The notes under the pieces are model-generated. The model was not told the origin of the DNA, ran no database searches, and worked only from the letters and a program-made list of their open reading frames with translations. From Cyanobacteria bacterium MAG CAR3_bin_5 (GTDB lineage Bacteria; Cyanobacteriota; Cyanobacteriia; PCC-6307; Cyanobiaceae): a stretch of 64,000 bases of DNA. The stretch spans positions 1 to 64,000 of the forward strand of contig JAPOTR010000031.1 of assembly GCA_026709085.1 (NCBI GenBank), read 5' to 3'. A program made the translations under genes and the position numbers. This document shows, piece after piece, positions 54,358 to 58,222 of this stretch (its first letter is position 1; the number at the start of each line of letters is the position of its first letter).

Positions 54358-54711
54358 TTACTGCTGGTGCTCGTGTTTCCCTGGCCCAAGCCCTGCGGGA
54401 GACCACCCTGGAAGAGCTGTTCCTTGACGTGCGCTCCTCTGGCAGGCCATCCTGGAGGACGACAACGTCTTGATGATTTGACAGGGAGTCAGGGGCGGAC
54501 CAAGGTGGTCAGTGGAGACAACAGAAAGCGGCGCGTTGCGGGCCACCAAGGAAGGCCCTCTTGGGGAAGGCTTTCCTTGAAGATTCGCTCCTGCCGGCCC
54601 CTGGGAAATGCCCTCTTCGGGTTCCCCGATAGAGGGCCGGTCAACGGCGCAGCTTGGGTTCCAAGAATCACAACATTCTGCAACTTGACAGCAGCAGGGG
54701 CTTGGGGGCAG
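54358..54711. other. 354 bases with at most a small fragment
   Basis: A GTG at 54355 opens a frame reading ITAGARVSLAQALRETTLEE and LFLDVRSSG; one base out of frame it would continue QAILEDDNVLMI and stop. This looks like a short antitoxin-type protein with a single-base deletion, but the evidence is thin. The rest is GC-rich with no gene that I recognise. Confidence 0.35.
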
Positions 54712-54854
54712 GATGAAAGGTGAACTTCTTTCTCCATGCCCTTTCCCCAGGCTTTCCCAAGGCTGCTTACCGCCCCGGTCTTGACCTTGCCCCTCATTGG
54801 TAGACCTTCTCCAGTATTGGCCAGGAAAGCCTTGAACTTCGAGGAGCCTTGAAA
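54712..54854 (+). repeat. dispersed repeat B, copy 1, with ribosome-binding site
   Basis: This segment matches 55930-56061. Shared blocks are GGTGAA-TT, AAGCTGCTT-CC, CGGTCTTGACCTTG, TTGTCCAG-ATTGGCCA and the identical 3-prime end GAACTTCGAGGAGCCTTGA. The GAGGAG in the last block sits 8-9 bp before the ATG of the next gene and is its probable Shine-Dalgarno. Confidence 0.85.
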
Positions 54855-55529
54855 ATGACGTTTCTAGCCTTTGTATTTGTTGTCTGTTTATTTTCTTATG
54901 TGTTTCATTGCCCAAAGCATTTCAAGAATAAGAGAAATAAAGGAATAATGAAAGATATTCATTTTAATTTAGACAAAATAAACCGATATACTGATGAAAT
55001 AAGAGTTTTTCTTCTGGAAGGCTATAGTCTTAATAATACAAGTTTGTCGAGTGATTTTAATAGAATAAAAATTCAAGACAAGAGATTGCAAAGAGAAAGA
55101 GGAATCTTTGGTGGTTATGGTGATGCTGATGAAGGAGTGTTAAATGATATTTTGTCCTCACTTAAAAACATAGTGTCAGAATATGAAATAGAAATTAAAC
55201 TTCTAAATGAAAAAAGAAAAATCATTCAAGAACTCATAGATAAATGTACAACATGGGAAATAACAAGAGATAAAGTAGTTGAATTGGAAGAAAATGGAAT
55301 CCCTATATCTCTTGATTCTGAACTTGTAGCTAATATAGAGAAAAACTATAATACTATCTATCAATTATGTATTAAAAAGAACTGGCGCGGAGATGTACAA
55401 AAATGCTTCAAGAAAATCAGAAAAGAAGATATGAAGTTGCTTCAGAATTATTTATCCTATTTTGCACAAGAAGAAGTGGTTGCTCACATAGAGGATGTCG
55501 CAAAATTAGACTCTATTCTTAAATCCTAG
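54855..55529 (+). CDS. AT-rich membrane-anchored coiled-coil protein
   Basis: The 224-residue protein starts with one membrane helix (MTFLAFVFVVCLFSYVFHC) and then a long, highly charged Lys/Glu/Ile/Asn-rich helical region with heptad character (NIVSEYEIEIKLLNEKRKII). Its composition is far more AT-rich than the core genes, a strong sign of transfer from a low-GC source. The start is set by the GAGGAG of repeat B. No domain family is recognised. It lies between an SbcCD-like pair and a restriction gene, so a defence role is possible but unproven. Confidence 0.6.
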   Translation: MTFLAFVFVVCLFSYVFHCPKHFKNKRNKGIMKDIHFNLDKINRYTDEIRVFLLEGYSLNNTSLSSDFNRIKIQDKRLQRERGIFGGYGDADEGVLNDILSSLKNIVSEYEIEIKLLNEKRKIIQELIDKCTTWEITRDKVVELEENGIPISLDSELVANIEKNYNTIYQLCIKKNWRGDVQKCFKKIRKEDMKLLQNYLSYFAQEEVVAHIEDVAKLDSILKS

Positions 55530-55710
55530 CTTGATTTCAGGATTGACTACTTATGGCCACCTCGAAAAATCGCCGTTTCCCCGCCTGGGAAAGCTGACTG
55601 GTCCTACGAAACCCTCTCCAGGACTGACTTTCTCAGGGTGAGACGGCAGCCCATTGAGGTTTTGCTCAATTTTCGAGGCGCCCTTATTGTCTATAAAATG
55701 ACTGATAGGT

Positions 55711-55833
55711 CTTGGGAAACGCTGGAAAACCTCAAAACGAGTCCACATAGGGTTCTGATTCCCCTTTCACAGCAAGGCTTTTCAGAAGGCCAGAGCTGGG
55801 GCAGATGAGTTTTCCAGGGTTTCCCTTATGGTA
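55711..55833 (+). repeat. dispersed repeat A, copy 2
   Basis: This is the counterpart of 1497-1640. It lies about 100 bp upstream of repeat B copy 2, so A and B together form a 350-bp block before the next gene. The DNA from 55530 to 55710 has no gene that I recognise. Confidence 0.65.
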
Positions 55834-55929
55834 GTTGGCCTCTGCCTTGACCCATGGGTAAAAGGTCTTATGGAGGCTTGACAGCTTACCTTTAAGAATT
55901 GTATCAATAACTTGAGAGAGTAAGGGCAG

Positions 55930-56061
55930 CATGGAATAATCCAAATGGTGAATTTTTCTTTACATGCTCTCTCCCACCCAAGCTGCTTGCCACGGTCTTG
56001 ACCTTGGTAGCTCTTGTCCAGCATTGGCCAAGAAAGCCCTGAACTTCGAGGAGCCTTGATT
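55930..56061 (+). repeat. dispersed repeat B, copy 2, with ribosome-binding site
   Basis: This copy ends in the same 19 bases as copy 1, with GAGGAG at the same distance from the following ATG. Copy 2 is slightly more AT-rich and has small indels relative to copy 1. Confidence 0.85.
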
Positions 56062-56337
56062 ATGGACTATACTATTGTGGACTTTTTTCTTCTTCTGGTT
56101 CTTTTTCTGATTATCTGGATACCCTATGCCTTAATTGTGGTTCTTGTATCCCTTATCTTCAAGATTAAACGGAGCCATGAAGAATGGGTCAACGTACTTC
56201 TTGCTGGTCCTTTGGTAACTTTTGCTATAGGCCTCATTATGGATATTTTAAGTGGCGGTTACTTGGGAGAGAAGAAAAGGAGAAAGAAAGAGAAAAGACT
56301 GGAAGAACTAGAGGAAAGACTGGAAGAACTGGAATAG
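56062..56337 (+). CDS. small AT-rich membrane protein with coiled-coil tail
   Basis: The 91-residue protein has two membrane helices (IVDFFLLLVLFLIIWIPYAL and a second around LLAGPLVTFAIGLIMDILSG). A basic stretch EKKRRKKEKR then leads to an exact repeat of RLEELEE heptads at the C-terminus. The ATG at 56062 is set by repeat B. It shares no sequence with the gene at 54855 except the upstream repeat. The function is unknown. Confidence 0.55.
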   Translation: MDYTIVDFFLLLVLFLIIWIPYALIVVLVSLIFKIKRSHEEWVNVLLAGPLVTFAIGLIMDILSGGYLGEKKRRKKEKRLEELEERLEELE

Positions 56338-56446
56338 GAACTTTGAGTCTCATGGTAGGCTGATAACGCCTTCAGTGAAGGCACGGGCAACCTGCTGCGG
56401 TTCCCGCCAGCTTATCCTACTACCCATCTCCTCGTCAAGCCAGACC

Positions 56447-58222
56447 ATGGCCCCCGCGTCGGATTCCGTCTCGTCACCAGCCCCTTGGCGCAGCAGCCTG
56501 TTTGCCCAGGATTTTCTCAGCGGGCCGTTGATGAATTCTCCGGCCTGGCAAGGGCTGGAGGATGGGGAGTTGGCAGCGGTGGCGGCGGGGCTACAGGAGA
56601 TTCTGAAGCGTTTTCCCCAGGGCCACCAGCCCAACGAAGCCACCACGGAGGACGAGTTGATCTGGCCCGTGCTCAGGCGCCTGGGTTGGCGGGATGTCTT
56701 GCGGCAACAACGGCTCAGCAGCCGGGGGCGGGAGGACGTGCCCGATGGGGTGTTGTTTGCCGATGAGGCGGCCAAGGCCAAGGCGCTGGCGCAGGAAGAG
56801 GAATGGCGCCGCTATGGCCATGGGGTGGTCCTGGTGGAAGCCAAGCGTTGGGGGGTGGGGTTGGACCGCAGCAGCCCTCAGCAGCGGGTGCCGGCCGGCC
56901 AGGTATTGCGCTATTTGCGCCGTGCCGACGACCTGACCCATGGGGCCCTGCGGTGGGGCATCCTCAGCAACGGCCACTGTTGGCGCCTCTATTACGCTGG
57001 CGCCCGCTCCGTGGCGGCGGAGTTTCTGGAAATGGATCTACCGGCAATCCTGCGTCATCAGGACCGCCAGGGGCTCAAGTTGTTTGTGCTGTTGTTCCGT
57101 CCCCAGGCGTTTGCGCCGGGTGTGAACGGCCATAGTTTGCATCAGTTCATTCTGAACGAGGGGCGCCGTTATGAAGAACGGGTGGCCGCCAATCTCTCGG
57201 ATATGGTGTTTCATCAGGTATTTCCCCGGCTGGCCAAGGCCCTGGCCGCTGCCGCCGAAGATGCTGACCAGCCCTTGACCACGCCCGCCTCCCTGGCCCA
57301 GGTGCGCGAGGCGGCCCTCACCCTGCTTTACCGGCTGCTCTTTATCCTTTATGCGGAGGATCGCGGCCTGTTGCCGGTGCAGAATCCTGGCTACTATAAC
57401 TATAGTCTACGCTGGCGGCGTGATGCCGTGAGATGCCGGAAAGAGGCCAATGGTACTTTCTCCACCAAGTTTTGCCGCTACTGGTGCGATTTGCAGGGTC
57501 TTTGCCAGGCCATCGATAAGGGGGACCCCTCCATTGGCCTGCCCCCCTATAACGGCGGCCTGTTCAACGCTGCCCAAGCACCTCTGCTGGCGCAGCCGGC
57601 CGTGCGCCTCAGCGACCGGGTAATGGCGGACGTACTGGCGGCCCTCTCCTTTGACAGCAAGACGGGAAACTATATCAATTACCGGGATTTGAGCGTTGAG
57701 CAGCTTGGCTCCATTTATGAACGGCTGCTGGACCATGAACTGGCGCATCGAGACGGGGTCGTCACGGTGCAACCCAACCTGTTTGCCCGCAAGAAATCGG
57801 GCAGTTACTACACGCCGGATGCCCTGGTGCGGCTCATCATCAAGGAAACCTTGACACCCCTGGTGGAAGGGCGCAGCGCCGAAGAAGTCCTGGCGCTCAA
57901 AGTCTGCGATCCGGCCATGGGCTCCGGCCACTTCCTGGTGAGCCTGGTGGATTATCTCAGTGATCGGGTGATCGAAGCCCTGGCCGCCGCGCCGGAGGAG
58001 GAAACAGAATCCCATGGCGCCGCCGGGCTGAACGGGACGCCGGTGGCGGAGCGCATCGAGGCCGTTCGCGCCACCATCCGGGAGAATGCCCGCCGGGGCG
58101 GCTGGCAGTTGGAGGAAAGTCAACTGGACGACCGCCACATTGTGCGGCGTCTGGTGTTAAAGCGGTGTGTCTACGGTGTGGACAAGAATCCCATGGCGGT
58201 GGAACTGGCCAAGATGGATTGA
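56447..58222 (+). pseudogene. type IIG restriction-modification enzyme, truncated
   Basis: These enzymes combine an endonuclease and an adenine methyltransferase in one chain. The N-terminal part has the nuclease core (EDVPDGVLFADE followed by GHGVVLVEAKRWGVG), then a helical linker (LYRLLFILYAEDRGLLPV), YNGGLFN, and the methylase motif I CDPAMGSGHFLVSLVDYL. It ends right after CVYGVDKNPMAVELAKMD, where the catalytic NPPY motif and target-recognition domain should follow, so about the last third or more is missing. The following 440 bp contain no continuation in any frame. Methylation is therefore impossible; any cutting activity would be unprotected, which argues that the remnant is silent. 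Confidence 0.8.

Follow-up and report, generated by a model that had tools for sequence, protein, structure and literature searches.

The window analyzed here is a 64,000-nt stretch, contig G000:C53, of a genome (G000) of 2.37 Mb in 67 contigs. On sequence grounds, the genus is placed in the 'Candidatus Synechococcus spongiarum' group, that is, among the sponge-symbiont Synechococcus; the Rrf2 protein encoded on another contig of the same genome, G000:C25, has counterparts with 77-85% identity in six picocyanobacterial genomes, two of which are named Ca. S. spongiarum (SP3 and LMB bulk15M). The locus of interest contains two AT-rich genes, each preceded by a copy of the same repeat, and the copies end almost at the start codons of the genes that follow them. 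Each copy comprises a promoter region, a short leader open reading frame (ORF) and a conserved tail that holds the Shine-Dalgarno (SD) sequence of the next gene. The features are collected in Table 1.

Table 1. Features of the repeat locus, with positions in the window.
Feature	Position	Strand	Basis or remark
rrf2 (Rrf2-type regulator) 3′-end remnant, 2-nt frameshift	54377..54485	+	G000:C25 alignment
Repeat copy 1: promoter region, leader ORF and tail	54651..54852 (5′ edge approximate)	+	Alignment
Operator-like imperfect palindrome, ATTCTGCAACTTGACAGCA	54675..54693	+	Putative function
Leader ORF 1, MPFPQAFPRLLTAPVLTLPLIGRPSPVLARKALNFEEP-stop, 38 aa, signal-peptide-like	54736..54852	+	Homology to 5′ end of the C2 exported-protein gene
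Conserved tail of copy 1, KALNFEEP-stop; GAGGAG at 54841-54846 is the gene 1 SD	54826..54852	+	
Gene 1: orphan AT-rich protein, 224 aa, N-terminal TM helix	54855..55529	+	Relative searches
MITE-like element, 17-nt terminal inverted repeats, 82%	55552..55686	.	Not part of leader
MITE-like element, 17-nt terminal inverted repeats, 94%	55714..55825	.	Not part of leader
Repeat copy 2: promoter region, leader ORF and tail	55905..56059 (5′ edge approximate)	+	Alignment
Promoter-like TTGAGA-17-AATAAT, TG ahead of second hexamer	55912..55940	+	Consensus match only
Leader ORF 2, MLSPTQAACHGLDLGSSCPALAKKALNFEEP-stop, 31 aa	55964..56059	+	Translation and alignment
Conserved tail of copy 2, KALNFEEP-stop; GAGGAG at 56048-56053 is the gene 2 SD	56033..56059	+	
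Gene 2: orphan AT-rich membrane protein, 91 aa	56062..56337	+	Relative searches

Repeat copies and their surroundings

The initial annotation had described a repeat carrying a ribosome-binding site, and its existence is borne out by local alignment of the two copies, which gave a score of 118, whereas none of 1000 Markov shuffles exceeded 34 (their maximum). The final 61 nt of the copies are 87% identical. The identical 3′ end that had been noted is common to both (TGAACTTCGAGGAGCCTTGA) and is 20 nt long rather than 19 nt, and GAGGAG does lie at the same distance from each ATG, namely 8 nt upstream. The extents originally proposed (54712-54854 and 55930-56061) proved too short: similarity of copy 1 begins at ∼54674 when compared with G007, another genome of the genus, and at 54377 when compared with G000:C25. 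The match to G000:C25 (window 54377-54740, 76% identity over 377 alignment columns) includes the end of rrf2, and the rrf2 remnant in the window is part of a duplicated segment that continues into copy 1. In copy 2, indels totaling 21 nt have put the signal-peptide part out of frame.

The upstream palindrome of copy 1 contains a −35-like TTGACA (54685-54690), and G000:C25 holds a better-preserved form of it (TTCTGTAACTTGACAGAA). At G007:C63, a perfect palindrome (TTATTCTGTCATGTGACAGAATAA) spans the −35 region (stretch L024, ∼1389-1412). The palindrome at G007, copy 1 and C25 is a possible operator for a regulator.

We considered whether the repeat might be a MITE and rejected this, as the ends of the leader copies carry no terminal inverted repeats. 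The two MITE-like elements of the locus both sit between gene 1 and repeat copy 2, and the second of them (55714-55825) has an 84% copy in G005:C185, a contig of a further genome of the genus. An Rfam search gave no match. Matches in G005 to the CCCCAGGCTTTCCC stretch of the repeat, mostly at contig ends, were also set aside; they resemble the end of a multi-copy G005 element and not the leader. Such matches lie at or near the ends of contigs C128, C35, C13, C89, C99 and C7 and have the same CCCCATTCCCCAGGCTTTCC end, a pattern pointing to a mobile element whose multiple copies interrupted the assembly.

The locus had been assigned to a cluster with an SbcCD-like pair and a restriction gene. 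The SbcD/SbcC-like pair is present; the restriction-modification gene (56375-58222) is a truncated DrmMI/type IIG-like fragment, which ends once the methylase domain has begun, aligns with no more than the front of the DrmMI/type IIG models and has no continuation that could be found downstream. The suggestion that the two downstream proteins are accessory defense factors was not upheld: the restriction gene is truncated, and PADLOC gave no match for gene 1, gene 2 or the related exported protein encoded at G000:C2. A conserved site was likewise rejected, as the region ahead of proA varies among the genomes of the genus.

A tail with a coding signature in front of start codons

The repeat copies were searched in ten genomes of the genus. 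A 26-nt core occurs six times, in three of the ten genomes, and a reversed control pattern found no match in the genus. Besides the two copies in the window, the core sites are G000:C2, G007:C63, G005:C185 and G005:C170. Every tail is followed by an ATG (6/6), 2-5 nt past the stop: the gap from TGA to ATG is 2 nt in copy 1, copy 2 and G007, 4 nt in C170 and C2, and 5 nt in C185. The check proposed in the initial annotation, a search for further copies in relatives and for their placement relative to start codons, thus came out in favor of non-random placement. The copies are nevertheless few and restricted to one genus.

The last 27 nt of the tail read AAA GCC CTG AAC TTC GAG GAG CCT TGA, which encodes KALNFEEP-stop. 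Among the six tails, seven of the nine distinct differences leave this reading unchanged, as would 16 of the 81 possible single changes (P = 9e-5, a value that serves only as a guide because the tail differences are not fully independent); in the other two frames, 3/8 and 0/8 of the differences are silent. The SD is written within this tail, as the Glu-Glu codons GAGGAG or GAGGAA, and forms an anti-SD duplex of −5.6 to −7.6 kcal/mol. All six tails retain the SD at its spacing, and the upstream halves have diverged. Sequestration of the SD by RNA structure was rejected: in folding calculations the SD was no less accessible than in shuffled sequences, from which it could not be distinguished, and no structural switch was seen.

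The sequence ahead of the tail is not always an open leader. G007 has a TAA stop ahead of ALNFEEP, the C170 tail has no start-codon ORF in front of it, and the C185 tail is preceded by a broken relative of the C2 gene (53% identity, two stops). The leader peptide is thus not conserved in every copy, given the frameshift in copy 2 and the stop in G007.

Exported-protein genes with both ends of the repeat

At G000:C2, the tail is the end of an intact 185-aa gene with a clear N-terminal signal peptide and the C-terminal sequence ...VLTQKALNFEEP-stop. The two halves of the repeat are found in this gene, one at its front (promoter and signal peptide) and one at its end (KALNFEEP-stop), and the gene body between these conserved ends has a GC content of 40%. 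R1, a sequence model trained on three full repeat copies and three tails but not on the fronts of C2 or C25, matched the promoter and signal-peptide region of the C2 gene (G000:C2:58117-58262, E 7e-4) and also G000:C25:20352-20446 (E 6e-4). It is R1 that tests the shared front, and not a second model, R2, because C2 and C25 were included in the training set of R2. In pairwise alignments, the C2 front scored 52 with copy 1, 62 with G007 and 40 with copy 2. None of 1000 shuffles scored as high for copy 1 or for G007 (shuffle maxima of 48 and 47, respectively), and 11 of 1000 did so for copy 2; for copy 2 taken alone, the apparent homology to the 5′ end of C2 is weak.

At G000:C25, an intact rrf2 is followed by a lipoprotein gene (...FLLAMVSFVLSSC...) that has the same promoter region as the repeat and ends in AKFYFEEP-stop, with no coupled gene after the stop. 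In named relatives other genes sit after rrf2, aroA in several, which marks the C25 gene as a lineage-specific insertion. In the lipoprotein ORF (minus strand; stretch L118 ∼2870-2890), 10 consecutive C lie between the ATG and the signal peptide, and reading in frame from that ATG would take 9 or 12 C; this could reflect phase variation, use of another start codon (an in-frame TTG lies just upstream) or a sequencing error. In G005:C102 (stretch L134 ∼1510-1530), ATCTTAATATCCTGTAACA, which is found in the C2 front too, stands ahead of a different lipoprotein-like gene (MKTKAGLLIAFSLALSACGGG...), and this site matches model R2 with an E value of 0.005. Signal-peptide-like protein matches in other genomes were all judged on inspection to be due to chance, and the predicted structure of the C2 protein was too uncertain for structure searching.

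The surroundings of the C2 gene, which adjoins genes resembling, by eye, a DUF262 protein and a type IIG-like methylase (G000:C2; stretch L119 8650-13999), look on the same visual comparison like a defense or variable island. The defense-like neighbors in the window and at C2 are compatible with variable islands and prove nothing about function.

Both window copies have the shared promoter and signal-peptide front and the C-terminal FEEP-stop of these genes, and in both the mature body is absent, so that they are derivatives and not full family members. Since C2 carries both halves, and C25 has the same front together with a FEEP-stop, the window repeats are best described as a FEEP-tailed gene minus its body.

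Genes downstream of the tail

The genes behind the window copies agree with their initial description as unrelated, AT-rich and membrane-anchored: their GC contents are 29.5% (gene 1) and 38.8% (gene 2) versus 61.7% for the window, BLASTP detects no similarity between their products, and both N-termini are hydrophobic (best KD19 of 2.16 and 3.07, respectively). The coiled-coil character also attributed to both is seen in the charged, coiled-coil-like C-terminal end of gene 2, and is only plausible for gene 1, whose all-helical structure prediction is of low confidence (pLDDT 56) and too uncertain for structure searching. No credible relative of gene 1 was found in 98 other genomes, phages, plasmids, IMG/VR viral contigs and Pfam/family libraries, and none of gene 2 in 59 genomes, IMG/VR, family libraries and GTDB contigs; with these searches empty, an assignment of either gene to phages, plasmids or known families was rejected.

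Four types of gene follow the same tail, namely gene 1, gene 2, the C185 ORF (103 aa) and the C170 ORF (a 56-aa TM ORF). The gene downstream of the C2 tail is of the C170 type and is reduced to six codons, apparently through a deletion between CGTTG repeats. In G007, gene 2 is present as a degraded partial copy after the same leader, within a mosaic: its first ∼90 bp adjoin the leader, and a C185-type gene, itself degraded (83% over 146 bp), comes after them. No other observation speaks as strongly for exchange of coding sequences behind the leader. The cassette originally envisaged, in which a fixed 5′ region is joined to different coding sequences, is retained to this extent, with four kinds of downstream gene in three genomes. 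It has to be recast in another respect, as the fixed region is not a mere ribosome-binding-site repeat: one half is the front of a separate exported-protein gene and the other its C-terminal codons.

Discussion

The repeats in the window are probably an exported-protein gene that is without its body and feeds the gene behind it. In the parent family, which would be specific to this lineage, we envisage conserved ends, a promoter and signal peptide at the front and a C-terminal ...FEEP-stop, around an AT-rich variable middle. That the body was lost and not gained would be the simpler course and is favored here because full genes exist at C2 and C25. In the trimmed copies, the promoter-like elements (TTGACA in copy 1, TTGAGA-17-AATAAT in copy 2) would drive a short leader ORF of 38 codons (copy 1) or 31 codons (copy 2), and the penultimate leader codons, GAG GAG, would act as the SD of the next gene. 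Translation of the leader would end at the TGA, and reinitiation would occur 2 nt downstream, using the GAGGAG that had just been translated. The AT-rich membrane-protein gene would then be the second cistron, most likely expressed by termination-reinitiation. Recombination may swap different AT-rich genes in behind the junction, as the junction (tail, stop, SD and ATG) would be self-sufficient. Points against this explanation are the frameshifted signal peptide of copy 2 and the stop in the G007 leader, the C170 tail without a start-codon ORF, the weak homology between copy 2 and the C2 front, an SD as accessible as in shuffles, the small number of copies and their confinement to one genus.

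Some of the same points would be expected if the repeat were a non-coding cassette, a promoter and 5′ UTR with a ribosome-binding site copied before unrelated genes, with KALNFEEP incidental. This was in essence the view of the initial annotation, and we regard it as unlikely. Such a cassette accommodates the loss of the signal-peptide frame in copy 2, the TAA in G007 and the C170 tail without an ORF, and retention of the SD and its spacing in all copies also speaks for it. However, the silent-site bias is limited to one frame, the tail is the true C-terminus of the intact gene at C2, and FEEP-stop appears again at the end of the C25 lipoprotein, where no coupled gene follows.

Alternatively, the repeats might be pseudogene remnants of an exported-protein gene, in which the tail persists for lack of time, and genes 1 and 2 might be recent AT-rich insertions that may hardly be expressed. 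The two propositions taken jointly appear less probable still. Remnants do lie all around, among them the frameshifted rrf2 end, the truncated restriction gene and the MITEs, the G007 copy is a pseudogene, and the second gene at C2 has been deleted; yet both gene 1 and gene 2 have an intact ORF and an SD in a suitable position, and the SD has been kept in 6/6 tails despite diverged upstream halves. Finally, it is very improbable that the signal peptide and (K/R)KALNFEEP are secreted as a peptide for which the membrane protein is a receptor or immunity partner: leader 1 does resemble a signal peptide plus nine residues, these residues are conserved through silent changes and the downstream genes encode membrane proteins, but the same tail ends the full-length C2 protein, FEEP ends the C25 protein, a signal peptide is missing from leader 2, the peptide in G007 is directly preceded by a stop, and the downstream genes are mutually unrelated.

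If the window repeats are indeed trimmed exported-protein genes, they illustrate how foreign AT-rich orphan genes could come to be expressed in a new genome by simple means, as a gene tail at the landing site would already provide the ribosome-binding site. The repeat would then become a testable exported-protein family with fixed ends and changing middles, in a sponge symbiont for which few host-contact proteins are known. We tentatively extend this, as a possibility short of being likely, to a two-slot cassette in the genus, in which an exchangeable AT-rich body and an exchangeable second membrane-protein gene are combined with the conserved promoter and signal peptide and the FEEP-stop/SD junction. 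Recombination at the conserved ends would in that case supply the sponge symbiont with new exported and membrane proteins, and each incoming gene would be expressed at once via the fixed junction.

Comparison with known systems

MITEs and other short mobile repeats can carry promoters or ribosome-binding sites, and the leader is like them in being a short dispersed repeat upstream of genes. It differs in that it ends without terminal inverted repeats, its 3′ boundary is always a start codon, and its two halves occur at the two ends of a complete gene. The prochlorosin precursors are a secreted gene family with a conserved leader and variable bodies, and the family described here similarly has a conserved N-terminal region joined to unrelated bodies. 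The shared part is, however, a promoter and signal peptide in place of a modification leader, and the family has two further elements, a conserved C-terminal tail and a variable second gene.

Short leader ORFs that control the next gene are known from iraD, where the leader stop overlaps the next start codon (PMC5574718), and from mgtQ, ahead of mgtB (PMC8092293). As in these coupled upstream ORFs, a short ORF lies immediately ahead of the gene, its stop is 2 nt from the start codon in the window and 2-5 nt in all six cases, and the SD of the downstream gene is inside the leader ORF. In contrast to them, the leader is an exported-protein gene in trimmed form, present ahead of several unrelated genes, no SD-sequestering structure beyond that of shuffles is seen, and coupling is proposed from the arrangement. 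Termination-reinitiation requires that the genes overlap or lie very close together and is nearly lost at ∼20 nt, and the common natural spacings of closely spaced gene pairs are −4 and −1 nt (PMC10666635). The 2-nt gap in the window fits this need for an overlap or a very short gap, and the stop-to-start distances of 2-5 nt, with the SD upstream of the stop, liken the arrangement to such pairs. What sets it apart is that the second gene is of four kinds and not one fixed partner.
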